Shown here: piece by piece, positions 311-32,061 of the stretch
Numbering within the stretch: position 1 is the stretch's first letter
How the letters are laid out: every line of letters starts with the position of its first letter
DNA from: an uncultured Pelagibacteraceae bacterium
GTDB taxonomy: Bacteria > Pseudomonadota > Alphaproteobacteria > Pelagibacterales > Pelagibacteraceae
NCBI GenBank assembly: GCA_902558795.1
Contig: CACEFI010000004.1
Span: forward strand, 1-45,586
Direction of reading: 5' to 3'
DNA length: 45,586 bases
Program-made: the position numbers and the translations under genes
Notes under the pieces: model-generated
Database searches by the model: none
Told to the model about the DNA's origin: nothing
Seen by the model: only the letters and a program-made list of their open reading frames with translations

Positions 311-1180
311 TCAATTCTTAGGAGCAGTTGTTAAATAATTTGCATCATGAAAAGAAGTTAACATTTTTTTCTTAGTACTGATGATGTGCGGATAGTAAGC
401 TGTTCCTTTATAATTCCAAATAACTGGTTTATTGAGTGCATAACTTCCATAAATAAAAAATCTTTTTGGACAGTTTTTTTCTATAAAACGTTTAACTCCA
501 TGATAAGAATTTGGTGTAGATTGAAAAAATACCACAGTCCCTTTCTTTGGAGTAAAAGCTTTAACTACTTCTAGTTCACTCATTTTTGGAAATCTTCTGA
601 AACTTTTTCTTAAATTTTTCTTTGATTTTTTTCTATAAATTGTAAGCGAACCTCCATTTTTTTTTGGAATATCTGTTAGATAAATTAAGAAATTATACAA
701 TCTCGTAATATCATCTCTATGAGGACGTAATCTGTATCCTCCCTTTGATACCGAAAAGTCTATATCTAAATTTACTTTAGGATTAGTATAATTGTTACCT
801 AACATTTTTTTTAATTCACTAGAATTTAATTTTTTTTTAATAGTAAACTTTTTAGGATTAAATGATTTTGGTTTATGTAGATTAACCCATGAACCATCCT
901 TGAAATTTTTTGTAAATAAATTTTCAATTTTTTTATAAAAAGACTTACTATTAAAAAGCCTAAAAAGCTTTGCAGAGTTAATTGAATTTTTGATATATAA
1001 ATTAAAATTTTTAGAACCTTTATTAATCCTGCTTCTGCCTCCCATAATCATATCATCAAATGATTTTGAGTTGCTGATTTCTTTAATTAATAAATTACAT
1101 ATATTTTTTGAAACAACGTTGTCTCCAACTAAAACAGGAAAGTTACTTTTGATTTTTTTTAATTTATTTGTACTGAGCAT
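311..1180 (-). CDS. 2-oxoglutarate/Fe(II)-dependent oxygenase family protein
   Basis: Motif 'RLRPHRDDITRLYNFLIYLTD' (HxD) followed by a distal His in 'SYHGVKRF', typical of the double-stranded beta-helix 2OG-Fe(II) fold. Confidence 0.75.
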   Translation of the reverse strand: MLSTNKLKKIKSNFPVLVGDNVVSKNICNLLIKEISNSKSFDDMIMGGRSRINKGSKNFNLYIKNSINSAKLFRLFNSKSFYKKIENLFTKNFKDGSWVNLHKPKSFNPKKFTIKKKLNSSELKKMLGNNYTNPKVNLDIDFSVSKGGYRLRPHRDDITRLYNFLIYLTDIPKKNGGSLTIYRKKSKKNLRKSFRRFPKMSELEVVKAFTPKKGTVVFFQSTPNSYHGVKRFIEKNCPKRFFIYGSYALNKPVIWNYKGTAYYPHIISTKKKMLTSFHDANYLTTAPKN

Positions 1181-2125
1181 TTAGCTGTACATACCTTCTT
1201 TCACTTTAATCATTTTATACATGAGATCATTTAGAGGTGTCTTAACACCATGTTTTTTACCTATTTTTGAAACTGCACCACTAATAAAGTCTATTTCAGT
1301 TTTTCTCTTGTATTGAACGTCAAAAGCCATAGATGACTTGTTAGTTTGCATTGAGTCTACAATTTTATTAAACATAAATAAGCATTCATCTTCAGAAACA
1401 TTTACACCATCAGCAAGTGCGACTTCTCTAGTTTCTAGAATTATTTCTTTACCTAGGCCTCGAGATACTTCGTTTGCTTTGTTGTTTATATATAAATCAG
1501 TATGATGAAGATCAAAAATTGCAGATAATGGTCCAATTGCTGTTAGAGCAAAAAGTTTCATCCATTTTCTTTTTTTTACATCTTCAGCTGCAATCATTTC
1601 CAAATTATGCGCAGTAAAAGTTTCAGCTATTTCTGTAATTCTTTCTGTTATTCCTCCTTCATATTCACCAATCCATGAAGGCAATGCACCATGGTTCATT
1701 ATATGACCTGGTCCTAAAATATTTGAAGCTTGTGTTGTTGTTCCACCGATTACTTTCTCTTTCCCAACAATACTTTGAATTATTGACTCATGACCAATTC
1801 CATTTTGAAAAGACATGAAGACTGTTTTTTCACCAATAATATTTTTAATGCTATTTAGTGCTGGTTCTAATGCAGTTGCTTTACACATAACAATCACTGC
1901 ATCCATTTTATCCAACGATGATGGATCTGAAGTAGCTTTAACCTTAATTATACGATCTCCACCATGACCATCCATTTTCAAACCATCTTTGTTAATTGCA
2001 TCTACATGTTCTTTCCAAACGTCAATTAAAGTTACATTTAAACCTTTTTCAGCTAGCAATCCTCCAAATAGGCATCCCATAGCGCCTGCGCCTAATACAG
2101 ATATTTTTAAATCTTTGTTTATCAT
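1181..2125 (-). CDS. Ketopantoate reductase (PanE/ApbA)-family oxidoreductase, probably divergent in substrate
   Basis: N-terminal 'SVLGAGAMGCLFGGLLAEKGLNVTLID' Rossmann motif, 'SFQNGIG', 'KWMKLFALTAIGPLSAIF', 'TEIDFISGAV' match the PanE/ApbA layout. Confidence 0.85.
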   Translation of the reverse strand: MINKDLKISVLGAGAMGCLFGGLLAEKGLNVTLIDVWKEHVDAINKDGLKMDGHGGDRIIKVKATSDPSSLDKMDAVIVMCKATALEPALNSIKNIIGEKTVFMSFQNGIGHESIIQSIVGKEKVIGGTTTQASNILGPGHIMNHGALPSWIGEYEGGITERITEIAETFTAHNLEMIAAEDVKKRKWMKLFALTAIGPLSAIFDLHHTDLYINNKANEVSRGLGKEIILETREVALADGVNVSEDECLFMFNKIVDSMQTNKSSMAFDVQYKRKTEIDFISGAVSKIGKKHGVKTPLNDLMYKMIKVKEGMYS

Positions 2126-2145: not shown

Positions 2146-2170
2146 TTATGTATAGAAATTATATATATTA
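2146..2170 (-). promoter_or_regulatory. Promoter/operator element, 25-nt repeat copy 1 (oriented toward the PanE-like gene)
   Basis: Minus-strand sequence TAATATATATAATTTCTATACATAA is identical to 28982-29006 (+). Contains TATAAT. Ends 20 nt before the PanE-like start codon. Confidence 0.55.
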
Positions 2171-2211
2171 TCTATAGACAATATGCAAAATAAATTATAG
2201 CTTATAGTATT

Positions 2212-3189
2212 ATGCAATTAAAAATAGAAAAGGGAACTTTTACAAACTATTCACTTGAAGATATAGCGAGTGCATTAAAAAAAGGACTTTCAGAAAATTT
2301 TAAAAATGTTGAAGTAGAAGTTGTAGATTGTCCTAATCTTCGTGAATGGGATTGTCCATCTGAAGGAATCAGTGGTAACCAAAAAATAATAGATGTTGGT
2401 GGTGAGCCATATATGCATGATCCTAATTTTATTGGTGCTGAATTTGATTACCAAGAAATTTCCAAAATGATTGGATCAGAAAAATCATATGCTTTAGGTG
2501 CTGGATCTGGTGCAATGTCGTGTTTGGATGGTCACTGTGGAGAATTGGTAATTAACGAAAATTTAATAACTGACGAGTCTAGATCTATAATTGCAAGAGT
2601 AAGTCCTGATAAAAAATGTATCGTTGAAAAATATAGCGCAAGAAAACACGGTGGACTTGGCAATATTTATTATACAGATGGCAAACAAGGAAAAGTAATA
2701 AAAATAAAAATTAAAGGAAGATCAGGTGATCAAGGTTCACTACCACAAGCAATGCGATCTTCATTATCAAATAATTTAAATCTTAAAGACAATGAACATA
2801 TTGCTATTGCAGGCGTGTTTAGAATTTTAGAGGGAAGAGTAAGATCTCATGTTCAACCAGATTATAAAGATATCAAACACGAATACTATGATCCAAAACA
2901 AATGAAATGTGTGAAAGATTTTCTTCAATTTTATGAGCCAGTTGGACCAAAGTTACAGTGTTATACAGTTCTTTGGACTGGAGACCCAACTGGAGGAGAA
3001 TTGAATTTAAGAGAGTCTGGTGAACATACACATTTCCATTCTTATCAAGATGATAAAGATGCAGGTCATTATCATTTTGATGTAACACCAGATGAAATAG
3101 AATATGAAGGATATTTTAATACAGCTTCAGAAGTACATAGAGTGAATAATATTTATAAAGAGCTACTAAGCAAAAATAGTATTGAATAG
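2212..3189 (+). CDS. DUF1907 / C11orf54-like (putative ester hydrolase) family protein
   Basis: Recognisable similarity to human C11orf54 along the length: 'VEVVDCPNL', 'LGAGSGAMSC', 'EKYSARKHG', 'GKVIKIKIKGRSG', 'FYEPVGPKLQC', 'EHTHFHSYQDDKDAGHYHFDVTPDEIEYEGYFNTASEVHRV' (the HTHF and GHYHxDxTPD motifs). Confidence 0.85.
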   Translation: MQLKIEKGTFTNYSLEDIASALKKGLSENFKNVEVEVVDCPNLREWDCPSEGISGNQKIIDVGGEPYMHDPNFIGAEFDYQEISKMIGSEKSYALGAGSGAMSCLDGHCGELVINENLITDESRSIIARVSPDKKCIVEKYSARKHGGLGNIYYTDGKQGKVIKIKIKGRSGDQGSLPQAMRSSLSNNLNLKDNEHIAIAGVFRILEGRVRSHVQPDYKDIKHEYYDPKQMKCVKDFLQFYEPVGPKLQCYTVLWTGDPTGGELNLRESGEHTHFHSYQDDKDAGHYHFDVTPDEIEYEGYFNTASEVHRVNNIYKELLSKNSIE

Positions 3190-3217: not shown

Positions 3218-3631
3218 ATGAAAAGACAGTTTAAGTATCCTAAATCTTTTGAAGAGCAGAAAAAAATTCCAAAAATAACTCAAAAAAGAATTAAATTAGC
3301 AGAAGCTTCATTAGGAGATTTTGAAGGAAGACTAGAGAATGATTTGCTTAATTGGTTTTCATTAACTCCTCAGCATTGGATTATGCTGCACATGGTAATG
3401 CTTGCTTATTATAAAAATAAATCAATTACTAAAAATGAATTATTAAAAGTTATTGAAAAATCTTATCTGACATCAAATGTTTATATAGACACTGCAATAA
3501 AAAAAGGATTTTTTAGAATTATCAGAAATGAAAAAGACAAAAGATCAATTTTTATTTTGCCTTCAGTGATAACAATAAAAACTTTTGAAGGATTCATAGA
3601 TAGAAGAGATATAGTTTACAAAGGTATTTAA
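3218..3631 (+). CDS. Small winged-helix/MarR-like protein, candidate transcriptional regulator
   Basis: 137 aa; 'LTPQHWIMLHMVMLAYYKNKSITKNELLKVIEKSYLTSNVYIDTAIKKGFFRIIRNEKDKRSIFILPS' resembles a MarR-type wHTH (recognition helix, then wing 'NEKDKRS'). Confidence 0.55.
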   Translation: MKRQFKYPKSFEEQKKIPKITQKRIKLAEASLGDFEGRLENDLLNWFSLTPQHWIMLHMVMLAYYKNKSITKNELLKVIEKSYLTSNVYIDTAIKKGFFRIIRNEKDKRSIFILPSVITIKTFEGFIDRRDIVYKGI

Positions 3632-4446
3632 TGAAAAATATTTATACTTGGGCAGCTAAGCCAGCTCAACGTAATTTAACAGTTGGAGATTTAAAAAAAG
3701 CAAAAGGTAAAAAAAAATTTACTCAAGTAACTGCAAATAGTTTTGAAGAAGCTGATGCCGCTGAAAAAGCTGGCTTTGACATGATTATTTCAAATGCAAA
3801 GAACGTAGTTGAAGTTAGAAAGGGTTCAAAAAATCTTTTTTTAACTGCCGCATTAGTTTTAAATGAATATGTGACAGCTGAAGATATTATGCGTGGTGCC
3901 TTTAAAGCTTTAGAAAATGGAGCAGACGCCGTGATGACTCCAAGAAGCATGAATATTGTTGAAATGCTAGCTAAAGAAGATGTCCCAGTGATGGGCCATC
4001 TAGGTTTGGTTCCAAGAAAATCAACTTGGATTGGTGGACTAAGAGCTGTTGGTAAAAGTTCAAGTGAAGCATATGAATTATTTCAAAAATTTAAAAGATT
4101 AGAAGATGCTGGTGCTTTTTCAGCTGAGTGTGAGGTTATACCGGAAAATGTAATGGGGGAAATTTCAAAAAGAACAAATATCGTAACAGTATCTCTTGGA
4201 GCAGGAAAAAATGCAGATGTAATGTATTTGTTCATGGAAGATATTTGTGGTGATACAGAAAATTTACCAAGACATTCAAAAGCTTATGGTAATTTGCTAA
4301 AACTTAGAAATGAAATTAAGCTTGAGAGAGTAAGAGCGCTTAAAGCATTTAAAAAAGATTCTATGAGTGGAAAATTTCCCGGAAAAGAACAATCCTCTAA
4401 TTTAGATAAAAAACAACTTGAAGAATTCTTAAGTAAGATTGATTAA
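3631..4446 (+). CDS. PanB-like (ketopantoate hydroxymethyltransferase superfamily) protein with diverged metal site
   Basis: 'VPVMGHLGLVPRKSTWIGGLRAVGKS', 'LEDAGAFSAECEVIPENV', 'VSLGAGKNADVMYLFMEDICG...P' follow the PanB pattern (VPVCGHLGLTPQ..., LECVP, IGIGAG..DGQ). Confidence 0.75.
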   Translation: MKNIYTWAAKPAQRNLTVGDLKKAKGKKKFTQVTANSFEEADAAEKAGFDMIISNAKNVVEVRKGSKNLFLTAALVLNEYVTAEDIMRGAFKALENGADAVMTPRSMNIVEMLAKEDVPVMGHLGLVPRKSTWIGGLRAVGKSSSEAYELFQKFKRLEDAGAFSAECEVIPENVMGEISKRTNIVTVSLGAGKNADVMYLFMEDICGDTENLPRHSKAYGNLLKLRNEIKLERVRALKAFKKDSMSGKFPGKEQSSNLDKKQLEEFLSKID

Positions 4447-6777: not shown

Positions 6778-8622
6778 ATGAAAAAAATTACTCTCACTTG
6801 TGCACATGCAATCGTAAAATATTTAATTGCCCAAAAAATATTAATTAATGGTAAAAAAGAACCTTTGTTTCCAGGAGTGTTTGGAATCTTTGGACATGGT
6901 AATGTTGCGTGTTTAGGCCAAGCGCTTGAAGAAAACCAAAAAGAACTGCCAACTTATAGAGGCCATCATGAACAAAATATGGCTTTGACAGGGATTGGGT
7001 ATGCAAGGGCTAAAAGAAGACAACAGATTTTTGTAGCAACTTCTTCAGTTGGTCCTGGTGCAACTAATATGGTTACAGCTGCAGCCGTTGCAATGAGTAA
7101 CAGATTACCTATTTTATTTTTACCTGGTGATACATATGCAAACAGAATGCCAGATCCAGTACTTCAACAAGTAGAACATTTTAATAATCCGGGAATAACT
7201 GCTAATGATGCCTTTAAACCTGTGACTAGATATTTTGATCGTATCACTAGACCTGAGCAAATAATTCAATCATTTCCAGCAGCAGTTCAAACAATGTTAG
7301 ATCCTGCTGATTGTGGACCTGCTTGCATCGCTTTAAGTCAAGATATTCAAGGACAAACTTTCGATTATCCTGAAGAATTTTTTAAAGAAAAAGTTCATGC
7401 AATTAGAAGACCAAGACCAGACGAATTTCAAATTAAAGAAGCTGCTGAAAAAATTAAATCATCAAAAAATCCAATAATAATTTCTGGTGGTGGAGTTTTT
7501 TATTCTGATGCAATGGATGAGTTAAGTAAGTTTGCAACTAAACATAACATTCCAGTTACTCAAACTGTAATGGGATATTCTACAATGAAAAGAGACCATT
7601 CACATTATGCTGGTCAAATAGGTGGGTTAGGTGGCAAAAACACAAATTCACTTGCCAAACAAACTGATCTTGCTATTGCTGTTGGTACTAAACTTGCAGA
7701 CTTTACTACTGGATCTTGGGCTAACTTTGAAAACGAAAAATTTCAACTTGTTTCAATTAACGTATCAAGATTTGATGCTAATAAACATTTGGCTCAAGCA
7801 GTAGTAGGTGATGCAAAAGTTTCATTAGATGAACTTTCACAAGCATTAGGTGATTGGAAAGCTGGCGAGGAATGGAATAGAAAATCTCAAGCAGAGTTAA
7901 AAGCGTGGAATGAGCATGTAGATAAAGAGAGTGCTCCTTCAAATCAAGAGGTACCAAGTTATGTTCAAGTAGTTGGTGCCGTCTATAAGAATTCTGATCC
8001 ATCAGATATCGCAGTTACTGCAGCAGGAGGTTTAGTTGGTGAGGTTATTCAGGTTTGGAGACCAAGAGAATTAAATACTCATGAAACTGAGTGGGGATTT
8101 AGTTGTATGAGTTATGAAATTTCAGGAGCATTAGGAATAAAAATGGCAAACCCTGATAAAGAAGTAATTTCTTTTGTAGGAGACGGGTCTTATCTTTTGA
8201 ATAATACAGATATTTATTCTTCAGTAATAACTAATAATAAGCTTATCATAATCGTTTGTGATAATGGCGGATTTGCAGTGATCAATAGACTACAATTATT
8301 TAAAGGTGGAAACGAATATAACAATTTATTAAAGAGTTCTAATACCCCAGGTCTCGTAAATGTAGATTTTGCAAAACACGCAGAAAGTATGGGAGCAAAA
8401 TCAGAGCATGTTAATTCAATTTCAGATCTTGAAGAAGCATTTAAGAGAGCAAAAAAATCAGATGTTACTTATGTAATTTCAATTAAAACTCATGCTTATC
8501 AATGGTTAGAGGGTTCTGCATTTTGGGATAGCCCTACACTAGAAATTCCAACCACTAAAGAAAATAAAGAAGCTTTAAAACTATATAAAGAAGGAAAAAA
8601 CAAACAAAGACAAGGCGTTTAA
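6778..8622 (+). CDS. iolD: 3D-(3,5/4)-trihydroxycyclohexane-1,2-dione hydrolase (ThDP-dependent) family
   Basis: 614 aa; 'LFPGVFGIFGHGNVACLGQALEE', 'TYRGHHEQNMALTGIGYARAKRR', 'SVGPGATNMVTAAAVAMSNRLPILFLPGDTYANRMPDPVLQQVEHF' are typical of IolD. Confidence 0.9.
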   Translation: MKKITLTCAHAIVKYLIAQKILINGKKEPLFPGVFGIFGHGNVACLGQALEENQKELPTYRGHHEQNMALTGIGYARAKRRQQIFVATSSVGPGATNMVTAAAVAMSNRLPILFLPGDTYANRMPDPVLQQVEHFNNPGITANDAFKPVTRYFDRITRPEQIIQSFPAAVQTMLDPADCGPACIALSQDIQGQTFDYPEEFFKEKVHAIRRPRPDEFQIKEAAEKIKSSKNPIIISGGGVFYSDAMDELSKFATKHNIPVTQTVMGYSTMKRDHSHYAGQIGGLGGKNTNSLAKQTDLAIAVGTKLADFTTGSWANFENEKFQLVSINVSRFDANKHLAQAVVGDAKVSLDELSQALGDWKAGEEWNRKSQAELKAWNEHVDKESAPSNQEVPSYVQVVGAVYKNSDPSDIAVTAAGGLVGEVIQVWRPRELNTHETEWGFSCMSYEISGALGIKMANPDKEVISFVGDGSYLLNNTDIYSSVITNNKLIIIVCDNGGFAVINRLQLFKGGNEYNNLLKSSNTPGLVNVDFAKHAESMGAKSEHVNSISDLEEAFKRAKKSDVTYVISIKTHAYQWLEGSAFWDSPTLEIPTTKENKEALKLYKEGKNKQRQGV

Positions 8623-8628
8623 TTCTTT

Positions 8629-9786
8629 ATGAATAAAATTTTTAAAGTAGGCCTAATTGGTTGTGGTCATATTTCTGAAACATATTTTAGAGCAGAGAAA
8701 TATTTCAATAATATTAAAATTGTTAAATGTGCAGATATAAACCTTAATAATGCACTTAAATGTGCAAAAACATATAAGATACAAGCAGTAACTGTTAATG
8801 AACTTTTGAAAGATAAAGAAGTTGAGATTATTTTAAACTTAACCATTCCTAAAGCTCATTACCAGGTCGCAAAACAGGCATTAGTTAATGGAAAACATGT
8901 TTACTCTGAAAAACCATTAGCAATTAATTTTAACGATGGAAAAGATCTCCTTAAAATAGCAAAAAAGAAAAAACTTTATATTGGAAACGCTCCTGATACT
9001 TTTTTAGGTGGCGGTATTCAAAAATCAAAAGAATTAGTTGATAAAAAAATTATAGGTAAAATCAATCTAGGAAATGCAATTTTTGCTTTTCCTGGGGTTC
9101 AATCTTACCATCCAAACCCAGAACCATGGTTTGCTAAAAAAGAAGGTGGGCCAGTAATCGATATGGGTCCATACTACTTAACAGCTTTAGTTAATTTATT
9201 AGGACCAGTAAAAAAAGTTACTGGCAGCATAGTTAATGGAGTTAAAAGAAGAACAATTGGTATTGGACCAAGAAAAAATAAAACATTTAAAGTTGAATGT
9301 CCCACTACATATTTATCAACAATTACATTTGATAACGGAACAACAATTAGACTAACTCTTTCTTTCGATGTTATTGCTCATCAAAGAAATCATATCGAAC
9401 TTTATGGTGACAAAGGCTCTATGATCGTTCCAGATCCAAATATGTTTGGAGGCTCAGTTTATGTATGTAAAAAGCTAGGTGATCCCTGGATAGAATATAA
9501 AACAAACAAAATGCCATTAGGAAAAATTAATATTAGATCACAAAGCTCTAGAGCGAACGAGTCTCCTACTAATGCTAATTATCGTGGAGCAGGACTAGCA
9601 GAAATGGCTTATTCAATTGAAAATAAAAAAATAAACAAATGTAATGGAGAACTATCTCTTCATGTTTTAGATATCATTCAATCAACAATGAAAGCATGCA
9701 AGACTAATAAACCACAACTAATTAAGACTACATGCAAAAAACCAAGTTTATTCCAATTAAAAGATATAAAGAAAATATTGAAATAA
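8629..9786 (+). CDS. Gfo/Idh/MocA family oxidoreductase
   Basis: 'KVGLIGCGHISETYFRAEKYFNNIKIVKCADIN' Rossmann motif and 'VYSEKPLAINFNDGKDLL' (EKP motif). Confidence 0.92.
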   Translation: MNKIFKVGLIGCGHISETYFRAEKYFNNIKIVKCADINLNNALKCAKTYKIQAVTVNELLKDKEVEIILNLTIPKAHYQVAKQALVNGKHVYSEKPLAINFNDGKDLLKIAKKKKLYIGNAPDTFLGGGIQKSKELVDKKIIGKINLGNAIFAFPGVQSYHPNPEPWFAKKEGGPVIDMGPYYLTALVNLLGPVKKVTGSIVNGVKRRTIGIGPRKNKTFKVECPTTYLSTITFDNGTTIRLTLSFDVIAHQRNHIELYGDKGSMIVPDPNMFGGSVYVCKKLGDPWIEYKTNKMPLGKINIRSQSSRANESPTNANYRGAGLAEMAYSIENKKINKCNGELSLHVLDIIQSTMKACKTNKPQLIKTTCKKPSLFQLKDIKKILK

Positions 9787-9802
9787 TATTTATAATCAAA
9801 AT

Positions 9803-10564
9803 ATGAAAGTTCAATATTTTGATTTAAAAGATAAACGTGCTTTAGTTTCAGGTGGAGCATCTGGTATTGGAGCATCAATTGTTGAACATCTTTGTGAACA
9901 AGGAGTTGAGGTTTATTTTTTTGATATAGATAAAAAAGAAGCTCAAAAACTAATTACAAAAATTAAAAAGAAAAAACAAAGAATACCTACTTTTCTATTC
10001 TGCAATATTAAAAATATAAAAAAATATAAAAATTTAATTCAAGGTATTATTAAAAAGAAAGGTCCAATCGATATTTTAGTTAACAACGCATCAAATGATC
10101 AAAGACATACTCTTGAGGAAATTACAGAAAAATACTGGGATGAAAGAATGACAATAAATTTAAAGCACTATTTATTTGCTATTCAAGCAGTTAAAAAAAG
10201 CATGACTAAAAACAAAGGTGGATCAATAATAAACTTAGGTTCAGTTAGCTGGATAAGAGGTGCGGTTATGTTTCCAGCTTATGCCACAGCAAAAGCCGCA
10301 ATTTATGGCTTAACTAAATCTTTAGCTAGAGATTTAGGACAACATAATATTAGAATAAATTCTATAGCACCTGGATCAGTTGCAACTAAAAGGCAGTCAA
10401 AATTGTGGTTAAATTCAAAATTTAAAAAAGAAATTTTAGATAATCAGTGTCTTAAAACACAAATATTACCTGAGGATGTTTCAAGAATGGTTTTATATTT
10501 AGCTTCCGATGTTTCGTCTGGTTGTACGAAACAAAATTTTACTGTCGATGGTGGATTAATTTAA
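9803..10564 (+). CDS. Short-chain dehydrogenase/reductase (classical SDR)
   Basis: 'ALVSGGASGIGASIVEHL', 'LVNNAS', Ser then 'YATAK' catalytic motif, 'INSIAPGSV', C-terminal 'VDGGLI'. Clear paralogue of 20977-21738. Confidence 0.92.
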   Translation: MKVQYFDLKDKRALVSGGASGIGASIVEHLCEQGVEVYFFDIDKKEAQKLITKIKKKKQRIPTFLFCNIKNIKKYKNLIQGIIKKKGPIDILVNNASNDQRHTLEEITEKYWDERMTINLKHYLFAIQAVKKSMTKNKGGSIINLGSVSWIRGAVMFPAYATAKAAIYGLTKSLARDLGQHNIRINSIAPGSVATKRQSKLWLNSKFKKEILDNQCLKTQILPEDVSRMVLYLASDVSSGCTKQNFTVDGGLI

Positions 10565-10570
10565 GTTTGA

Positions 10571-11746
10571 TTATTCAATTATATTAAAATCAGATTTATA
10601 TTTATCAGTTATAGTTAAACCTAATCCAGGAGTATTATCATCCAAATTGATAAATCCATTTTCTGGAGCAGGATCACCTTCAAAAATATAATAGAAAAGT
10701 TCATTTCCAATTTCAACGTCATGAACAGGAAAAAATTCAGAAATAGGACAATTGAAGTTAGACATTGTTAAATGATAATTATGCATTTGACCTGCATGAG
10801 GAATTACAGGAACTTGATGAGCTTCTGCAATTGCATTAATTTTTTGAGCAGCTGTAAAACCACCAACTCTATTATTGTCATATTGAATATAACTTACCGC
10901 TTTTAAATCTAATAATTGCTTGAAACCAAACATATTGAATTCGTGCTCTCCCCCAGAAATTGGAATCATATTCATATTATTTAGTTCAGCATATCCATGA
11001 ATGTCATCTGCTATAACAGGTTCTTCTAACCATCTTGGATTAAATTTCATAAGTTTTGGAATCATTCTTTTGGCATAATCTAAATTCCAACCCATATAAC
11101 ATTCCATCATTAAATCTGTATCTTCACCTATTACTTCTCTTACAGCTTCTGCAAGTTCAATGTTTTTTTTCATTCCTTCTGGGCCATCTTTTGGGCCCCA
11201 ACCAAATCTCATTTTAAACATTTTGAAACCTTGCTTCACATAACTCTCAGCTTCTTTTTGAAGATCTTTAATTGGTTGGCTATAAAGTTTGGATGCGTAA
11301 ACAGGAATTTTTTCTTTTGTTCTTCCCCCCAAAAGTTTGAATACCGGTTTATTAGTGATTTTACCCATTATATCCCACAGCGCGATATCAATAGCTGATA
11401 TTGCAACCATACCAATTCCTCTTCGACCCCAGGCATGGGTTCTTCTATACATTTTCTCCCAAATGTAAGCATAATCAAAAGGATCCTCTCCAATCACTAA
11501 GGGTTTTAAATATGTATCAATTGTTTTTTTAGCTACTTGCGGTGCTAAGGCTGCATTACCTATTCCAATGGTTCCATCATCAGTTTCAATTTCACAAATT
11601 AACCATTCATGAAATCTAAATGAACCCATTGCATCAGATTTTTCAAATAAAAGATCCGAAGCATTTGTACAAAAATTATTTTGTGGAGGTACAGTTTCCC
11701 CATTCCACTGGTAAACTTTAGTTCTTATTTCTTTAATTTTAGTCAT
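10571..11746 (-). CDS. Mandelate racemase/muconate lactonizing (enolase superfamily) sugar-acid dehydratase, L-rhamnonate dehydratase-like
   Basis: '[35 protein letters not shown]', 'LMMECYMGW', '[10 protein letters not shown]', 'ISGGEHEF', '[12 protein letters not shown]', '[13 protein letters not shown]' match the RhmD-like pattern. Confidence 0.85.
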
Positions 11747-12741
11747 TGTTTATTTTTATTTTCAGCCATTGTTAAAGCAATTTTGAAAGAATTCAAAGTA
11801 GGTTCTAAATTTGCCTGATTTTTACCAGCAATATCAAAAGCAGTTCCATGAGCTGGTGTTGTGATAGGAACAGGCAAGCCTCCTTGAACTGTAACCCCTC
11901 GATCAAAACCAAATGCTTTTAATCCAGATTGAAGAGCATCATGATACATGCCCACAATACAATCGTGATTTTTATTTTTATAAGCAGTAATAAAAGAAGT
12001 ATCACAAGGTAAAGGCCCGTCTGCTTTAATACCTAGTTTTTTTACTTCTTCTATTGCTGGAATAATTTCGTCTTTTTCTTCAGTTCCAAATTCTGCATGT
12101 GGATTAAGAGCTTGAACAGCAACTCTTGGACTTTCAATACCATTTAATTTCATTGCTTCATTAATTAGTTTAATTGGTTTGATAATCTTTTCTTTTTTGA
12201 CATGCTCTGGAACTTCTTTAATTGGAATATGAGATGTAACTCTTGCAGTCCAAAAGTTATCGATAACATTAAATTCACAAAAAAAATTTTTTACATCTAG
12301 CTTTTCTGCCATCAAATGTAATTCATCTGAATATTTATTTCCCCCAAGCTTTAAACTTGTTTTATTGAATGGACCAAAATTTATTGCATGAATTTTATTT
12401 TCTTTAGCAAGTTCTAGAGCTAGATTTAATGCTGATAAAACACTTTCTCCAGATTCTTTAGAACATTCCGATAATTTATAATTGTGATTTTTACCTTGAG
12501 TAATATCTAAAAAATATTTATTCTTATCTTGAAAATTAATTTCATCAAAATTTTCTACAAATTTTAGATCATGTGAATTACCGGAAATTTTATTTCCACC
12601 TTCTAAAATATTTTTTTCACCAATAATTACAATATTCGCTTTATTTGTAATTTCTTCTGTTAATAATTTTGAAATTAACTCTGGCCCAATACCTGATGGA
12701 TCTCCCAAGAGCAGTGCAATATTAATTTTAGTTTGAGGCAT
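11743..12741 (-). CDS. PdxA-family (4-hydroxythreonine-4-phosphate dehydrogenase-like, possibly PdxA2-type) protein
   Basis: '[22 protein letters not shown]', '[14 protein letters not shown]', '[10 protein letters not shown]', '[44 protein letters not shown]'. Confidence 0.9.
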
Positions 12742-12810
12742 TTTTTACTTTACGGTTTGTATCAGATTATGTTTATATAATTAATTATAAATTAACTAAA
12801 GAGGGAAATA

Positions 12811-13782
12811 ATGAAAAAAAGTTTTAAACTTTTCTTAGCTGCTGCTTTTCTAGTGACTGAATTTTTTGTTATAGCACTACCTATGCTTACTACTTCTGCA
12901 AGAGCAGATGGTGCTATTCAAGCAATTACTCACGCTGGTTTTGGTGGTGGTACTGACGTAACTACTAGAATGATGCTTTTAAGAGCTCGAAGAGTTCTTA
13001 AACAAGACATGCAATTAGTTAACAAAAAAGGTGGTGGTGGAGCTGTATCTATGGACTACATGATGAGCTTACCTGCTGATGGTCAACACACTTTAACTTG
13101 GACTACTGGACACGCTGTATCAATGGCATTAGGTAAAACTAAAGTTAAGATTAGCGACATGCAACCACTTGCAAGAGGAACAGATGATCCTCAATTATTT
13201 GTAGTAAATTGTAAAGCGGACATCAAAGATGCTAAGAAATTTATTAGTGTTCAAAAATCAAAATCACTTAAATATGGAACAACCCATGTTGGTGGAATTG
13301 ATGATGTAAGTGCAATTGCGTTTACTAAAAAAGGTGGATTAAAAGATCCTACTATTGTTGCTTACAAAGGTGTAGCCCCAATTAAAACAAACTTAATCAA
13401 AGGAGATATTGATGTAGGTGTTTTAAACTTAGGAGAAGCATTAACTGAAATAAATGATGGAACACTTTGTGTTTCTGTTGTTTTAGCAAATAATAGAATG
13501 GCTAAAATTGGAGACTCTCCAACAGCTAAAGAATTAGGAATACCTGTTTCTTTATCTACTGTTAGAGGCTTTGTAACTAAAAAAGGTGCTCCAGCTGAAA
13601 GAGTTAAAGAGTTAGAAGCTGGAATGATGAAAGCTATGAGCCACAACTACTATAAAAATTTCTTAACAGAAATTGGTCTTGATGAAACAAGTGTTGTTGG
13701 TGCTGATGAATGGGGTAAGCAAATGGAAGAAATGCTTACTGAAATGACTGCACAGCTTAAAGCTTTAGGTTACATTAAGTAA
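12811..13782 (+). CDS. tctC: Tripartite tricarboxylate transporter (TTT) substrate-binding protein, TctC/Bug family
   Basis: Signal peptide followed by 'AITHAGFGGGTDVTTRMMLLRARRVLKQDMQLVNKKGGGGAVSMDYM'. Followed by TctB and TctA homologues. Confidence 0.9.
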   Translation: MKKSFKLFLAAAFLVTEFFVIALPMLTTSARADGAIQAITHAGFGGGTDVTTRMMLLRARRVLKQDMQLVNKKGGGGAVSMDYMMSLPADGQHTLTWTTGHAVSMALGKTKVKISDMQPLARGTDDPQLFVVNCKADIKDAKKFISVQKSKSLKYGTTHVGGIDDVSAIAFTKKGGLKDPTIVAYKGVAPIKTNLIKGDIDVGVLNLGEALTEINDGTLCVSVVLANNRMAKIGDSPTAKELGIPVSLSTVRGFVTKKGAPAERVKELEAGMMKAMSHNYYKNFLTEIGLDETSVVGADEWGKQMEEMLTEMTAQLKALGYIK

Positions 13783-13806
13783 TTATAAAGATAGTACATT
13801 TAGTTT

Positions 13807-14316
13807 ATGAATAATGTACGAAAACAAAAAAGGGCAAACAAAAGTTTGCCCTTTTTTTTTAAAGATGAATTTAAAGTTTCATTTGTAATAATATTTATTT
13901 CAACAATTTTACTAATATCTACTTTTTCTTTTGATATTGTTCCTCCAATTTTAAACAGAGGAATACAACCTGCGACGTTTCCTAAAGCTCTATTGGTTTT
14001 AATAATTAGCTTAACTTTAATTGTGTATTTTTTATCAACTAAAAAACCGTGGAAGACTGAAAAAAAATTACCAAAACCTTTTTATTTAACATTAATAAGT
14101 TTTTTATTATTTATTTTGATTTCAAAAACCCTAGATTTCTTTTTAGCAATTTCTGTTTTATCAGTTTTTGTTTCATATTATTGGGGCGAGAGAAGATTTT
14201 TTTATTTATTATTAGTTAGTATTATTTTTCCAATAATTGTATTTATTTTTTTTGAAACAATTCTAGGCTTAAGGTTTCCACCTGGAATAATCACTAATAT
14301 TTATTATCAGGTATAA
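13807..14316 (+). CDS. tctB: TTT small membrane subunit, TctB family
   Basis: 169 aa with about four hydrophobic helices, between tctC and tctA; 'FDIVPPILNRGIQPATFPKALLVLI'. The first ~18 codons overlap a terminator-like hairpin. Confidence 0.8.
   Translation: MNNVRKQKRANKSLPFFFKDEFKVSFVIIFISTILLISTFSFDIVPPILNRGIQPATFPKALLVLIISLTLIVYFLSTKKPWKTEKKLPKPFYLTLISFLLFILISKTLDFFLAISVLSVFVSYYWGERRFFYLLLVSIIFPIIVFIFFETILGLRFPPGIITNIYYQV
13826..13860 (+). terminator. Intrinsic terminator/attenuator-like hairpin inside the 5' end of the tctB ORF
   Basis: AAAAAA-GGGCAAAC-AAAA-GTTTGCCC-TTTTTTTTT: perfect 8-bp GC-containing stem (extendable by A:U pairs), 4-nt loop and a run of 9 T. Confidence 0.8.
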
Positions 14317-15789
14317 ATGGAAAATTTACTTTTAATGATGGCCCCGTTATTTAGTTCAAAACTTTTATTAGTTTTATTTTTTGGAACTTTATTCGGATTG
14401 ATCTTAGGTGTTTTACCAGGTCTTGGTCCTACTACTGGCGGTGCGTTAATTTTACCTTTTACAATGACTTTGGATCCGCTCTCAGCAATTGTTTTATTAA
14501 CATCAATTTATTGTGCAGGAACATACGGTGGTGCAATTACAGCTATTTTAATTAATACTCCAGGAACACCAGCCGCAGCAGCCACATGTTTAGATGGTTA
14601 TCCGCTAGCTCAAAAAGGTGAGGCTGGCAGAGCTCTTGGAATGGCAACTGTATCAAGTACTGTAGGTGGGATTTTTAGTGTCATAATACTTGTTTTTTTT
14701 GCACCATTGCTTGCAAAACTTGCTTATGAATTTGGTCAACCTGAATATTTTGCCTTAGCTATTTTTGGGCTAACAATGCTTGCTTCTATTGGAGAAGGAA
14801 GTCCAATTAAGAATTTAATTGCAGGTGCATTTGGAATTTTAATTTCAACTATTGGAAAAGATTTTATGACTTCAATTGATAGATTTACTTATGGAATTAA
14901 TGAGTTGTCTGAAGGAATTGGATTTATTCCAGTTGTTGTCGGTTTATTTGCAATCAGTGAAATGTTAACTCAATCAACTTTATTAGATCAGATATTTAAA
15001 AGAGTAGCTTTAAAAGCAGTAAAACTTCCATCTTTAAAAGATTATAAATTAACATGGAAAACAATTTTAAGATCTTCAGGGATAGGTTCTTTTATAGGAG
15101 TTTTGCCAGCTGAAGGGGGGACAGTTGCGTCCTTGATTGGTTACTCAGAGGCTAAAAGATTTTCAAAAAAACCTGAAGAATTTGGCAAAGGGTCAATTGA
15201 AGGAATTGCGGGAGCAGAGGCAGCAAACAATGCTGCAACTGGTGGAGCAATGGTGCCCACACTTGCACTTGGTATTCCTGGGAGTGCAACCACTGCGGTA
15301 ATACTTACAGGTTTAATAATACATGGAGTAAGACCTGGGCCTGATTTATTTAGAGAGCAACCTGAATTTTTGTATGGAATTTTCGGTGCAATGTTAATTG
15401 CTAACGTGCTCTTCTTTATATTTGGTTTTTTTGGAGCTAAAATTTTTGCAAGAATTACACTTGTTCCAAATAAAATTTTATGGCCAATGATTTTTACTGT
15501 TTCTGTTTGTGGAACTTATTCATTGAGTCAATCTATATTAGATGTTTGGATAATGATTTTTTTTGGTGTACTTGGATTTTTTATGAGAAGATATGGATTT
15601 TCAGTAGTACCTGTAATCATTGGTTTGATATTAGGTGAATTAGTAGAAGGAACTCTAAGACAATCGTTGGTAATATTTGATGGAAACTGGTTAATGTTTT
15701 TTACAAGACCTATTGCTCTAACATTCTTTATTTTATCTTTTATTGCTCTAGCTTTTCCTTTATTAAGATCGAAAAAGAATAAAAAATAA
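14317..15789 (+). CDS. tctA: TTT large membrane subunit, TctA family
   Basis: 'GTLFGLILGVLPGLGPTTGGALILPFTMTLDPLSAIVLLTSIYCAGTYGGAITAILINTPGTPAAAATCLDGYPLAQKGEAGRALGMA' is diagnostic of TctA. Confidence 0.97.
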   Translation: MENLLLMMAPLFSSKLLLVLFFGTLFGLILGVLPGLGPTTGGALILPFTMTLDPLSAIVLLTSIYCAGTYGGAITAILINTPGTPAAAATCLDGYPLAQKGEAGRALGMATVSSTVGGIFSVIILVFFAPLLAKLAYEFGQPEYFALAIFGLTMLASIGEGSPIKNLIAGAFGILISTIGKDFMTSIDRFTYGINELSEGIGFIPVVVGLFAISEMLTQSTLLDQIFKRVALKAVKLPSLKDYKLTWKTILRSSGIGSFIGVLPAEGGTVASLIGYSEAKRFSKKPEEFGKGSIEGIAGAEAANNAATGGAMVPTLALGIPGSATTAVILTGLIIHGVRPGPDLFREQPEFLYGIFGAMLIANVLFFIFGFFGAKIFARITLVPNKILWPMIFTVSVCGTYSLSQSILDVWIMIFFGVLGFFMRRYGFSVVPVIIGLILGELVEGTLRQSLVIFDGNWLMFFTRPIALTFFILSFIALAFPLLRSKKNKK

Positions 15790-15790
15790 T

Positions 15791-16540
15791 ATGATTAAAT
15801 ATGATTTAAATGAGAGAGTTGCAGTTGTTACTGGTGGAGCACAAGGGTTTGGCTTAGCTACTACAGAAAAATTTATTGAGTCTGGTGCAAAAGTTATTAT
15901 TTGGGACATCGATGAAGAAGAAGCAAAAAAAGCAATTAACAAAATTGGATCAAAATATTTAACTTACCAAATTGTTGATGTAAGTAACTTTGAGGCGATT
16001 AATAAAAATTTAATAGAGATAGAAAGTTCACATAAAAAAATTGATATTTTTATAAATAACGCAGGGATCACAGGTATGAACACAACACTTCAAGAATACC
16101 CAATTGAAGAATGGAAAAGAGTAATAAACCTAAATCTAAACTCTGTATTTTATTGTTGTAAGGCTGTTGTTCCTTTTATGATTAAAAATAATTATGGAAG
16201 AATAGTTAATATTGCGTCTATAGCTGGAAAAGAAGGTAACCCAAATGCAAGCGCATACAGCACATCTAAAGCAGGAGTAATAGGTTTGACTAAATCATTG
16301 GGTAAAGAATTGGCTCAAAAAAACATTGCAGTTAATTGTGTTACACCAGCAGCTGCAAAAACTAGAATTTTTGATCAAATGACTGAAGAGCATATAAATT
16401 ATATGCTTTCGAAAATACCCAGAAATAAGTTTGCAAAAGTTGAAGAATTAGCTTCTTTAGTTACCTGGTTAGCTAGTGAAGAAAATTCGTTTTCAACTGC
16501 TGCAGTATTTGATTTAAGTGGTGGTAGAGCAACTTATTAG
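15791..16540 (+). CDS. SDR family oxidoreductase (FabG-like)
   Basis: 'AVVTGGAQGFGLATTEKFI', 'INNAGITG', 'YSTSKAGVIGLTKSLGKEL', 'DLSGGRATY'. Confidence 0.93.
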   Translation: MIKYDLNERVAVVTGGAQGFGLATTEKFIESGAKVIIWDIDEEEAKKAINKIGSKYLTYQIVDVSNFEAINKNLIEIESSHKKIDIFINNAGITGMNTTLQEYPIEEWKRVINLNLNSVFYCCKAVVPFMIKNNYGRIVNIASIAGKEGNPNASAYSTSKAGVIGLTKSLGKELAQKNIAVNCVTPAAAKTRIFDQMTEEHINYMLSKIPRNKFAKVEELASLVTWLASEENSFSTAAVFDLSGGRATY

Positions 16541-16542
16541 TC

Positions 16543-17445
16543 ATGCAAATTGGTATTGATGTAGGTGCTACAAAGATAGAGAGTGTTGTGCTTGAAAAAG
16601 ATGGACAAGAAAAACACAGATCTAGAATACCATGCCCAAAAAATTATACTCAAATAATTACTTCTATAAGAGATATTCATAGACAATTAGAACAAGAATT
16701 TAAACAAGAACTTCCAATTGGTGTTTGTCATCCTGGGGTTCACTCTCCTCAAACAGGGTTGGTTAAAAATGTTCCGAACCTAAGTTGGTTAGAAAAAAAA
16801 CCATTTCAAAATGATCTACGTAAAGCACTTGGGAAAGAAGTGTTTTGTGAAAATGATGCAAATTGTTTTGCATTGTCAGAGGCTATAGATGGATCAGGCA
16901 AACATTACAAAATTGTTTATGGTATAATCTTGGGATCTGGAGTTGGAGGTGGTTTAGTGATTGATAAAAAAATAGTAAGTGGTCCGAATGGTGTTGCAGG
17001 AGAATGGGGCCATAATCAAATTCCTTATTTTGCTGCTAAAAAAGAAAATTTTGACTCAACTAATCCAAGAGAAGCTGAGATTGAAAGTTTTTTATCTGGT
17101 TTAAGTTTAGCGAAAAGATTTAATAAAATTTATGGAAAAAATTTAAAAACAAATGAAATTTTTGAATTAAATAGAAAACATGATTTAGATGCAGAAAGAT
17201 TTATAGATGATTTTAAAGTAAACTTAGCAATGTCACTTTCAAGTATTATTAATATTTTAGATCCTGATGCTTTTGTTTTTGGAGGTGGAGTTTCAAATGA
17301 AATTGATTTTTTACACGAAATAGACTCACTAGTTAGGAAATTTGTTATTGGAAGAGAATACGAAGGTGTTTTTTTAAAACCTAAATATGGTGATGCTAGT
17401 GGTGTTCGTGGTGCTGCAAGATTGGGAAGAAGCGCGACATATTAA
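16543..17445 (+). CDS. ROK family sugar kinase
   Basis: 'QIGIDVGATKIESVVLEKDG', 'ENDANCFALSEA', 'GIILGSGVGGGLVIDKKIVSGPNGVAGEWGHNQIPY', 'FGGGVSNE'. Confidence 0.93.
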   Translation: MQIGIDVGATKIESVVLEKDGQEKHRSRIPCPKNYTQIITSIRDIHRQLEQEFKQELPIGVCHPGVHSPQTGLVKNVPNLSWLEKKPFQNDLRKALGKEVFCENDANCFALSEAIDGSGKHYKIVYGIILGSGVGGGLVIDKKIVSGPNGVAGEWGHNQIPYFAAKKENFDSTNPREAEIESFLSGLSLAKRFNKIYGKNLKTNEIFELNRKHDLDAERFIDDFKVNLAMSLSSIINILDPDAFVFGGGVSNEIDFLHEIDSLVRKFVIGREYEGVFLKPKYGDASGVRGAARLGRSATY

Positions 17446-17625
17446 TTAACAATTTCTCATTACAATTTAATTTAGAAAATTCAAATTTTACAAAAAATAA
17501 GAAAAGTAGCGAAAAAATATTGATAAAAAATAATCAATCAAAAGTTGTATTTATATTTTTTGTTATGATCTTTCCTCAAAGTAGTTATATTTCACTTTTT
17601 TAAATTAATTTAAAAGGGAGAAATA

Positions 17626-18531
17626 ATGAAAAAACTTATACTTTCGATTGCAGCTCTTGCATTATTTGCAACTTCTGCTTTCGCTGAAAGATATGTCATG
17701 GTTACACATGGTGAAGGAAAAGATCCTTTTTGGCCAGTAGTTCAAAAAGGTGGTGAAGATGCAGCTCGAGCAATCGGTGCTGATTTTGAATACATCTACA
17801 ACCCTTCTGCTGATATGGCTGATATGGCAAGCTCAATTCAAGCTGCTGCAGCTACTCAACCAGATGGTATGGTAATTTCTTTACCAGACCCAGATGCATT
17901 AGGTCCAGCTATTAAAGCTGCTGTTGCTGCTGGTGTTCCAGTAATTACAATGAACTCTGGTTTAGAGTCTTCTGCTAGCCTAGGTGCTTTAATGCACGTT
18001 GGACAGCCTGAATTACTTGCTGGACAAAAAGCTGGTGAAAGAGCAAAAGCTGAAGGTGCTACTAAAGCACTTTGTATGATTCAAGAAGCATACAACACAG
18101 CTCTTGTAGACAGATGTGAAGGTTACGGTTCTGCAGTTCCTATGCAAATGACTGATACTACATCTGACCCTGCAACTATTCAAACTAGAGCTACTGCTGC
18201 TTTACAAGCTAACAAAGATATCAATGCAATCCTTTCAGTAGGACCTCACGTATGTGAAGCTGTTGATAAAGCTTTAGCTGATCTTGGTATGACAGTACAC
18301 CACTCTTGCTTCGATTTAAGTCCTGCAGTTATGGATTTAATCGGATCTGGAAGAGTTGCTTTCACTATCGATCAACAACAAAGACTACAAGGTTATATGC
18401 CAGTTATCGTATTACACTTGTACAATAACAGTGCTGGACTTTTACCAGGAGCTAACATCCCATCGGGACCTGGCTTCGTTGACAAGTCTAACGCTTCTTC
18501 AGTTGCTGCTTTAGCAGGAATTGACAGATAG
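17626..18531 (+). CDS. Sugar ABC transporter periplasmic substrate-binding protein (PBP type 1)
   Basis: Signal peptide 'MKKLILSIAALALFATSAFA', then 'GEGKDPFWPVVQKGGEDAARAIGADFEYI...QPDGMVISLPDPDALGPAIKAAVAAGVPVITMNSG'. Strong SD 'AAGGGAGAAATAATG'. Confidence 0.93.
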   Translation: MKKLILSIAALALFATSAFAERYVMVTHGEGKDPFWPVVQKGGEDAARAIGADFEYIYNPSADMADMASSIQAAAATQPDGMVISLPDPDALGPAIKAAVAAGVPVITMNSGLESSASLGALMHVGQPELLAGQKAGERAKAEGATKALCMIQEAYNTALVDRCEGYGSAVPMQMTDTTSDPATIQTRATAALQANKDINAILSVGPHVCEAVDKALADLGMTVHHSCFDLSPAVMDLIGSGRVAFTIDQQQRLQGYMPVIVLHLYNNSAGLLPGANIPSGPGFVDKSNASSVAALAGIDR

Positions 18532-18547
18532 TCTGTAATAATTTAAG

Positions 18548-18576: not shown

Positions 18577-18601
18577 ATAAAATTAATTAACCTTTTTAAA
18601 A

Positions 18602-21738: not shown

Positions 21739-21746
21739 CAGGCTTT

Positions 21747-28956: not shown

Positions 28957-28981
28957 TACAACTCATAGTTGTTTATTTAGT

Positions 28982-29006
28982 TAATATATATAATTTCTAT
29001 ACATAA
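28982..29006 (+). promoter_or_regulatory. Promoter/operator element, 25-nt repeat copy 2 (oriented toward TRAP dctP)
   Basis: TAATATATATAATTTCTATACATAA; exact match to the minus strand of 2146-2170. Contains TATAAT. Confidence 0.55.
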
Positions 29007-29083: not shown

Positions 29084-30100
29084 ATGTTTAAATTAATCAC
29101 AAAAACTATAGCTACTGTAGCTATTGTTTCAGTTGCTTTATTTGGCTCTGCAAATGCAAAGACATTAAAGATTGAAACTCACTTTACTGCTAGTTCACCA
29201 AATGGTGAAGTTGCAGCTCAATTTGCAAAAAATGTTGAAATGTTTTCTGGAGGAAGCTTAAAAATAGAAATGTTCTATTCATCTTCAGTAACAGGTAAAT
29301 CTGCTGAGGTATTTAACTCTGCTCAAACTGGAATTATCGACTGTGATATGACTGGTGCTGGTTACCAAACTGGTAAAAATGCAGCGTTCCAATTCGCAGG
29401 TGATGTAATGGGTGGATATGACAATCCTTATCAACAATATGATTTCTTAAAGTTCCCAGGAGCTCAAGAAGCTGTAGATGCACTTTACAACAAATACGGA
29501 ATGACTTTAATTGGTTGGTGGATACCAGGACATGAGTCTTTGATTTCTAGTAAACCAATTCCAGATGTTGCATCTATTAAAGACTTTAAATTTAGATCAC
29601 CTCCAGGAATGGAAAGTATGATCTTTACAGCATTAGGCGCTAAGCCAATCGTAATGGACTTTGGTGAAGTTCCAACTGCTTTACAAACAGGTCTTATCGA
29701 TGGTGCGGACTATTCATCTTTAGCAACTAACTATGCAGGTGGACACTATGAGCAAAATAAATATGCTACATACCCTGGTTTCCACTCTATGCCTGCTGAC
29801 CACTTAGCTTGTAATACTAAAGTATGGAAAAAGCTAAAACCTCATGAAAGAGGAGCAATGAAAGCAGGAATAGAAATCGCAGGAAGAACTATCACTAGCT
29901 TAGTTGAAAGAAAAAATGCAGAAGCAGTTAAAGCTTTAAATGAAATGGGTGTTACTCTTCATGACTGGTCTAGAGAAGATAGACTTAAGTTTAGAAATGC
30001 TGCACTTGGAGCTTGGGAAGAATGGAAGAAAAAATCTCCTGAAGCTGCTGCTCTTATAGATATACACACAGCTTACATGAAAGCTAACGGTATCCTATAA
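29084..30100 (+). CDS. dctP: TRAP transporter substrate-binding protein DctP family
   Basis: Signal peptide; 'LKIETHFTASSPNGEVAAQFAKNVEMFSGGSLKIEMFYSSSVTG', 'FRSPPGMESMIFTALGAKPIVMDFGEVPTALQTGLIDGAD'. Followed by DctQ and DctM homologues. Confidence 0.95.
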   Translation: MFKLITKTIATVAIVSVALFGSANAKTLKIETHFTASSPNGEVAAQFAKNVEMFSGGSLKIEMFYSSSVTGKSAEVFNSAQTGIIDCDMTGAGYQTGKNAAFQFAGDVMGGYDNPYQQYDFLKFPGAQEAVDALYNKYGMTLIGWWIPGHESLISSKPIPDVASIKDFKFRSPPGMESMIFTALGAKPIVMDFGEVPTALQTGLIDGADYSSLATNYAGGHYEQNKYATYPGFHSMPADHLACNTKVWKKLKPHERGAMKAGIEIAGRTITSLVERKNAEAVKALNEMGVTLHDWSREDRLKFRNAALGAWEEWKKKSPEAAALIDIHTAYMKANGIL

Positions 30101-30167: not shown

Positions 30168-30737
30168 ATGCTTGACAAACAACTACAAGAACAAAATGAA
30201 AAAGTTGCAAGTAAAGATGATTTTCCAATAAATTGGATTGATAGAGTTTCATTATTTTTAAGCCATACAATAAAATATTTAATCCCCATAATAGTACTTG
30301 TAATGATGTACGAAATTTTTATGAGGTATATTTTAGAAAAACCAACTTTATGGGCCAACGAACTATGTTTATGGTTAGCTGGTGTTTGTTATTTAGTAGG
30401 CGGTATATATGCCACAAGATTAAGAAGTCATATAAGAATAGTATTATTATATGATTTTGTAAGTAGACCCACACAGAGAATTTTTGATTTAATAAGCACA
30501 TTAATTATTGTAATTTTTGCAGCTGCCGTAATTTATGGCGGTATGGAAGATGCATATAGATCATTCATAAATTGGGAGAGATTTGCAACTTATTGGGATC
30601 CACCAATTCCAGCAACTATGAAGCCGCTAACACTTATATGTGTATTTCTTATAGCAGTGCAATCAGTAAATAATCTAATAATTGATTGGAGAAACCCTAA
30701 AGAAAAACAATACGACCCTTCTAAGGATTTAAAATAA
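30168..30737 (+). CDS. dctQ: TRAP transporter small permease DctQ family
   Basis: 189 aa, four hydrophobic segments; 'YEIFMRYILEKPTLWANELCLWLAGVCYLVGGIYATRLRSHIRI' is typical DctQ. Confidence 0.93.
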   Translation: MLDKQLQEQNEKVASKDDFPINWIDRVSLFLSHTIKYLIPIIVLVMMYEIFMRYILEKPTLWANELCLWLAGVCYLVGGIYATRLRSHIRIVLLYDFVSRPTQRIFDLISTLIIVIFAAAVIYGGMEDAYRSFINWERFATYWDPPIPATMKPLTLICVFLIAVQSVNNLIIDWRNPKEKQYDPSKDLK

Positions 30738-30738: not shown

Positions 30739-32061
30739 ATGGAATTTGAAATAGGAACACTCTCGATAATATTAATAGTTGGATTGTTAGCTCTTATATC
30801 TATAGGTGTTCCAATGGGCTTTGCTTCAGGTTTTATGGGAGCAGTTCTTGTATTTTTAAATATTGGTGAGCACGCACTAGGTATATTACTTTCAAGATAT
30901 TATTCTCTTGTAGTTACTTATTCTTTTTTATCGGTGCCATTATTTATTTTTATGGCCTCCTTACTTGAACGCTCTAATATAGCGAGAGATTTATATGATG
31001 CTTTAAATGCGTGGTTAAGAAAAACTAGAGGTGGAGTAGGAGTTGTCACTGCGATCATGGCAACAATCATGGCTGCAATGAGTGGAATTATTGGAGGAGA
31101 AATAGTTTTATTAGGATTAATCGCACTGCCTCAAATGTTAAGACTTAAATATGATCAAGACATGTCTATTGGTATTATTTGTGCATCTGGATCTTTAGGA
31201 ACAATGATACCTCCATCAATTGTTTTAATTATTTATGGATTAACTACAGAGACTTCTATTACAATGTTATTCCAAGAAGCAATTGTGCCTGGTTTAATGA
31301 TTTCAGGCTTAATCATTACTTACATTCTTATTCGAACAAGATTACAACCTCACCTTGCCCCATTAAGTGATGAGCCACCATTAACTTTAAAAGAAAAAAT
31401 TTCATACCTACCGGGTCTTTTACCTCCAATTGGTATAGTAATAATTGTTTTAGGTTCAATTTATTCTGGAATAACAGGTATCACAGAAGCTGCTGGGATG
31501 GGTGTTGTAGCTACATTAATTATAATTTTTGCTAGAAAAGAATTGACACTTTTTTTATTTAAAGATGCACTAACAAGAACGTTTAAAGCATCTGGAACAA
31601 TTTTAACAATTACTTTTGGTGCAACAGTTTTAGCTGGAGCTTATTCACTTGCAGGTGGTCCAAAATATGTAGCTGAAACAATTTTAGCTTATGATTTGAA
31701 ACCAATGTATTTAATTTTCATGATGCAATTAATGTTCTTAGTGATGGGAGCATTTATGGATTGGGTAGGAATAGTATTGTTGGCAATGCCAGTATTTTTA
31801 CCAATAGTATTAGCACTTGGTTTTGATCCAATTTGGTTTGGAATTTTATTTTGTGTAAATATGCAAGTTTCATTTTTAAGTCCACCATTTGGTCCAGCCG
31901 CTTTTTACTTAAAGTCAGTTGCTCCACCTCATATATCATTAACAGATATTTTTAGAGGATTTGCTCCATTTATAGTAATTCAGTTAATTGTATTAGCATG
32001 TGTTATGTTTTTCCCGGAAGTTATGACACAAAACTTCCACGAATTTGTCCCCAAAAAGTAA
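30739..32061 (+). CDS. dctM: TRAP transporter large permease DctM family
   Basis: 'SVPLFIFMASLLERSNIARDLYDALNAWLRKTRGGVGVVTAIMATIMAAMSGIIGGE', 'GSLGTMIPPSIVLIIYGLTTETSI', 'MDWVGIVLLAMPVFLPIV'. Confidence 0.96.
   Translation: MEFEIGTLSIILIVGLLALISIGVPMGFASGFMGAVLVFLNIGEHALGILLSRYYSLVVTYSFLSVPLFIFMASLLERSNIARDLYDALNAWLRKTRGGVGVVTAIMATIMAAMSGIIGGEIVLLGLIALPQMLRLKYDQDMSIGIICASGSLGTMIPPSIVLIIYGLTTETSITMLFQEAIVPGLMISGLIITYILIRTRLQPHLAPLSDEPPLTLKEKISYLPGLLPPIGIVIIVLGSIYSGITGITEAAGMGVVATLIIIFARKELTLFLFKDALTRTFKASGTILTITFGATVLAGAYSLAGGPKYVAETILAYDLKPMYLIFMMQLMFLVMGAFMDWVGIVLLAMPVFLPIVLALGFDPIWFGILFCVNMQVSFLSPPFGPAAFYLKSVAPPHISLTDIFRGFAPFIVIQLIVLACVMFFPEVMTQNFHEFVPKK

Follow-up and report, generated by a model that had tools for sequence, protein, structure and literature searches.

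Why does the same 25-nt word occur in two intergenic regions about 27 kb apart in one stretch of Pelagibacteraceae DNA? The stretch analysed here in its entirety, referred to as the window, is 45,586 nucleotides long and comes from a small genome with 31% GC; many relatives have genomes of 1.0-1.4 Mb, and together these features point to the SAR11 group (Pelagibacterales). Transcription factors are scarce in streamlined marine bacteria, and to our knowledge few operators are known in them. We find that the word belongs, as its core, to an inverted repeat of ~35 bp, TGTCTATAGATAATATATATAATWTCTATACATAA, which contains a -10-like TATAAT. From comparative sequence evidence, this element is probably an operator that overlaps the promoters of two operons and is bound by a MarR-like protein encoded at 3218-3631. 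The features of the first locus are as follows.

311..1180, minus strand: 2OG-Fe(II) oxygenase-like gene, second gene of the panE-like operon (PF13640)
1181..2125, minus strand: panE-like dehydrogenase gene, first gene downstream of copy 1 (TIGR00745, PF02558/PF08546)
2146..2180, minus strand: site copy 1, 35 bp, TGTCTATAGATAATATATATAATTTCTATACATAA, in the panE-like/DUF1907 intergenic region, holding the 25-mer at 2146-2170
2151..2176, no strand: inner dyad of copy 1, a 26-bp imperfect palindrome, TATAGAAATTATATATATTATCTATA, with 11/13 pairs
2158..2163, minus strand: -10-like TATAAT of copy 1, toward the panE-like gene, read from sequence
2212..3189, plus strand: gene for a DUF1907 protein, divergent from the panE-like gene (PF08925, E=1.9e-60)
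3218..3631, plus strand: candidate regulator, a 137-aa MarR/SarA-like winged-helix protein (fold and weak Sar-family similarity)
3631..4446, plus strand: gene for a PanB-like protein, overlapping the end of the regulator gene (NF001452/TIGR00222, below cut-off)

The second locus is a TRAP transporter operon, followed by genes for sugar-acid-type enzymes.

28972..29006, plus strand: site copy 2, 35 bp, TTTATTTAGTTAATATATATAATTTCTATACATAA, with its end 77 bp upstream of dctP and the 25-mer at 28982-29006
28989..28994, plus strand: -10-like TATAAT of copy 2, toward dctP, read likewise
29084..30100, plus strand: dctP, TRAP solute-binding protein, downstream of copy 2 (PF03480)
30168..30737, plus strand: dctQ (PF04290)
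30739..32061, plus strand: dctM (PF06808)

A first-pass annotation of this DNA had reported the 25-mer as an exact repeat at 2146-2170 on the minus strand and 28982-29006 on the plus strand, both copies being intergenic and pointing toward the panE-like gene and dctP, respectively; coordinates and strands were confirmed. It had also judged the identity striking even for AT-rich DNA. Order-1 to order-3 Markov simulations of 13 intergenic stretches, all those of the window (together 1725 bases, 77.5% AT), bore this out and ruled out a chance origin of the shared word, as the longest exact word shared in 900 runs had a mean of 13 and a maximum of 18 bases, versus the 25 observed. Copies scattered through the genome, which had been named as evidence against a shared promoter element, were sought in the 770,209-base assembly (63% complete); only these two copies occur within 3 mismatches, and a control with the reversed pattern gave 0 matches in the same assembly. 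The exact identity of the repeat therefore stands, and its extent had to be revised. Identity between the copies runs on to 28 of 29 bases (2146-2174 and 28978-29006) and amounts to 31/35 over the full element, which is about 35 bp long and forms an imperfect inverted repeat. The DNA is very AT-rich, which might favor a chance match, and a mobile element or a recombination relic would also leave a repeat; given the simulations, the two-copy specificity and the conservation at orthologous positions across species described below, any such origin is vanishingly improbable.

Copy 1 is separated from the panE-like start by 20 bp and from the DUF1907 start by 31 bp, and because it is situated between divergent genes it can serve both. 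Its position weight matrix (PWM) score of 40.3 bits is the best match in the window, and copy 2 reaches 26.9 bits versus maxima of 7.5-14.9 in ten order-2 simulated windows of 45.6 kb. The dyad of copy 1 has the form TATAGA...TCTATA with half-sites T[GA]T[CG]TATAGA, and places a palindromic site close to the candidate regulator's operon, between divergent operons. Its shuffle p is 0.003, and three other 26-mers of the window also reach 11 or more pairs. By inspection of the aligned intergenic sequences, relatives carry AATATCTATA, which raises the dyad to 12/13 pairs. At the dctP copy the left half-site is degenerate.

A lack of conservation in orthologous intergenic regions had likewise been named as grounds for doubt, and the word proved to be kept at orthologous positions in relatives. 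A pattern scan (<=3 mismatches) of 151 genomes from the genus located it in 27, with between one and three occurrences per genome. With one exception in G082, every genus match examined is located either between the panE-like and DUF1907 genes or in the dctP promoter; the exception, the third match of that genome (L042, with 3 mismatches), has none of these genes nearby, adjoins a terminator-like hairpin and was taken as chance. The family scan gave one further 2-mismatch match (G320, contig 4), which is outside the matches examined. When 30 distinct panE-like/DUF1907 intergenic sequences were aligned, the 35-bp block was nearly invariant and its flanks varied. In the dctP promoters of relatives a conserved right half stands next to a looser left half, which forms TAGAAAATATATATAATTTCTA in G022. 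The site is thus both conserved in orthologous promoters and specific within a genome, as expected of a regulon.

The distribution of the site follows that of one gene. Across 296 genomes of the family, the regulator of the 3218-3631 type (E <= 1e-15) was detected in 23, the site in 24 and both in 22, so that 22 of 25 genomes having at least one of the two have them together (Fisher 7e-30, without correction for relatedness). Beyond the genus, the site pattern is restricted to G199 and G225 (group g2) and to G219 and G278 (group g4), from two other genera and the same four extra-genus genomes that carry the regulator, and it scores 22.6-27.5 bits there versus 7.5-14.9 for the best match in each of ten simulated 45.6-kb sequences. 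In g2 the regulator is 63% identical and is encoded beside a different dctP (24-25% identical to that of the window), the promoter of which carries TGTATATAGTTAATATATATAATTTTTATATATAA. In g4 a gene for a Liv-type binding protein and one for an ABC ATPase flank the site, TGTCTATGAAAAATAGATATAATTTTTATACATAA. Between them, the lineages associate the site with two distinct TRAP transporters and one ABC transporter of the Liv type. Separately, a perfect 26-bp palindrome, TATACCCCTTTTTAAAAAGGGGTATA, is present just upstream of the g2 regulator gene (L122:6257-6282), besides the operator-like sites.

The gene in question, ORF 3218-3631, is part of the DUF1907 operon, one gene away from copy 1. No curated MarR or Sar family model passes its cut-off for the product (TIGR01889, 24.9 bits with a cut-off of 62.6; PF22381, 19.1 with a cut-off of 27), and we therefore call it MarR-like rather than a member of either family. 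Its AlphaFold model is a winged helix (pLDDT 81) with the predicted order helix-helix-helix-strand-strand-helix of the MarR winged-helix fold. The top PDB matches listed by Foldseek are MarR/Sar proteins, HpaR, PefR, MepR and SarX among them, with a best E of 4.5e-4 and a TM of about 0.5, and a profile search of PDB sequences returned MarR/Sar-type proteins only, with weak E-values. In the literature searched, no paper deals with a regulator of this type or its site; both appear to be undescribed there, while the class is already known. A distant paralog (115-125 aa, about 33% identical; e.g. G000:C34:3256-3510) is shared by most genomes of the genus and occurs in a further family of the order as well.

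Natural deletions of the regulator gene also occur. In seven genomes (G004, G044, G087, G344, G054, G311 and G381) the panE-like and DUF1907 genes are kept and the regulator gene is missing in place, with the PanB-like gene retained in 4 of the 7. The panE-like/DUF1907 intergenic region of these genomes is 63 bp long and the site is gone; that of G087 retains AATTTCTATACATTAA. Their dctP promoters, at the other locus, match the 25-mer with 6-10 mismatches at best. At <=4 mismatches, the dctP site is found in 26 of 28 genomes with the regulator versus 0 of 7 with the deletion, a comparison for which Fisher values ignore relatedness. In the DUF1907 tree the seven form one clade inside regulator-bearing relatives, so that about one loss occurred at the panE/DUF1907 locus; in the dctP tree they occupy scattered, poorly resolved places. 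Since site and regulator co-occur and vanish together, as the members of a regulon would, we read the site as the regulator's predicted binding site, noting five genomes with a dctP site in which no regulator was found.

Those five genomes (G112, G286, G136, G092 and G088) keep the dctP site, and the panE-like, DUF1907 and regulator genes were all not found in them. They do not contradict the model, because the number of absences expected from incompleteness (the sum of 1 - completeness over the 32 genomes with a dctP site) is ~4.7 versus 5 seen, and the whole panE locus is missing at about this rate; having first looked like counter-evidence, they weigh little against it, though the locus may truly be absent. 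Two genomes, G031 and G074, have the regulator and a poor dctP site. In G351 (L124), where a divergent regulator ortholog lies beside another TRAP island, a clear copy of the site was not found, and its operator may have changed. The regions upstream of DUF1907 in g4 are alike with and without the regulator and do not discriminate. The site might instead be bound by some other transcription factor encoded elsewhere, ORF 3218-3631 being merely linked to the panE-like locus. The five genomes would fit this, and the distant paralog, present in nearly the whole order, could be another DNA binder. However, outside the genus the site is found only where a regulator of the 3218-3631 type is present, beside different partner genes, and deletion of the regulator coincides with loss of the site at a far-off promoter; a factor encoded elsewhere is thus unlikely.

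The deletions also bear on the promoter part of the element. It had been put forward as a possible promoter with a TATAAT -10-like core, and the TATAAT is present in both copies. The core promoter proved weaker, in that no acceptable -35 hexamer was found at the standard spacing of 16-18 nt from TATAAT at either copy, and a sigma-70 pair of -35 and -10 is accordingly lacking; owing to this absence the core promoter is a predicted one. Could the element nonetheless be a conserved strong core promoter, an extended -10 with a start region, and no operator? TATAAT lies within it, and it stands upstream of the starts in the same orientation at both places. Yet there are just two copies per genome, both arms of the dyad are conserved at copy 1, no standard -35 is present, and the panE-like/DUF1907 and dctP genes persist without the element in regulator-less genomes. 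We rejected a core promoter alone as a sufficient explanation, since the genes outlast loss of the site and the -35 does not fit, and consider this reading very unlikely.

The first-pass proposal of a promoter plus operator under a shared regulator is instead supported by the two-copy specificity, the conservation at both orthologous promoters and the dyad. Co-presence and co-loss with one regulator gene add a regulator that the proposal had left unnamed, probably ORF 3218-3631. In the model that we favor, the MarR-like protein would bind the ~35-bp operator overlapping the promoters of two operons. Copy 1 would act between two divergent transcription units, panE-like/2OG oxygenase and DUF1907/regulator/PanB-like, which would make the regulator's own operon one of its targets; through copy 2 the control would extend to the dctPQM uptake operon at a distance of 27 kb. 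Bound regulator would exclude RNA polymerase until released by an effector, which might be the substrate or an intermediate of the pathway. Repression is the simplest mechanism because both the -10-like TATAAT and the likely start site fall within the dyad. The regulator could also act through this site as an activator or in a dual role, a sub-case that overlaps the model above and with which the weak -35 regions at both promoters are compatible. A dyad enclosing a -10-like element and likely start is a typical repressor position, though, and the operons stay in place after loss of regulator and site, so that activation is the less expected mode, if one of some weight. We infer binding, the -10 element, repression, autoregulation, the effector and a sugar-acid substrate, and predict a local regulator-operator system that couples uptake to catabolism and is most likely repressive.

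The DUF1907 family (PF08925) includes human C11orf54, which has been identified as a beta-ketogulonate decarboxylase (PMC12435205). A sugar-acid substrate for the panE/TRAP system is plausible in view of this family function, the adjacent PanE-like dehydrogenase and the sugar-acid-type enzymes after the TRAP genes. The system links a DUF1907 protein to a specific TRAP transporter, which suggests a substrate class through the family's sugar-acid decarboxylase (PMC12435205). The DUF1907 protein (2212-3189) and its PanE-like neighbour also suggest a bacterial sugar-acid oxidation/decarboxylation pair. Between the two site copies, at 6778-23769, the window holds a long inositol/rhizopine/sugar catabolism island with IolD-like, rhizopine-type binding protein, TctCBA and ABC transporter genes.

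Because a regulator and its precise site can be named, each genome offers two target operons, other lineages have different ones and the regulator gene has been deleted in place in nature, the regulon is directly testable. We further put forward, tentatively and as a possibility somewhat less favored than its opposite, that ORF 3218-3631 represents an undescribed MarR/Sar-like subfamily, found in low-GC, streamlined alphaproteobacteria, which recognizes a wide inverted repeat with an A/T core and has switched from one type of transporter to another with its site nearly unchanged.

Compared with known systems, the arrangement resembles that of MarR-type repressors such as HpaR, MepR and PefR: a small winged-helix protein, a palindromic site in a divergent intergenic region beside its own operon and overlapping the promoter, and a distant target operon. 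It differs from them in that ORF 3218-3631 passes no curated MarR HMM cut-off and the centres of the inner half-sites are ~20 bp apart with an all-A/T spacer, whereas typical MarR sites are narrower. The best profile resemblance is to the staphylococcal SarA/Rot/SarX group (TIGR01889, PF22381; SarX in the PDB), below cut-off, and this group has AT-rich target DNA; unlike its global control, the targets here are local catabolic and uptake genes. In its conserved site with a linked regulator, and in target operons that differ between lineages, the system is like the regulons of local catabolic regulators described by comparative genomics in Proteobacteria (approach of PMC5343134).
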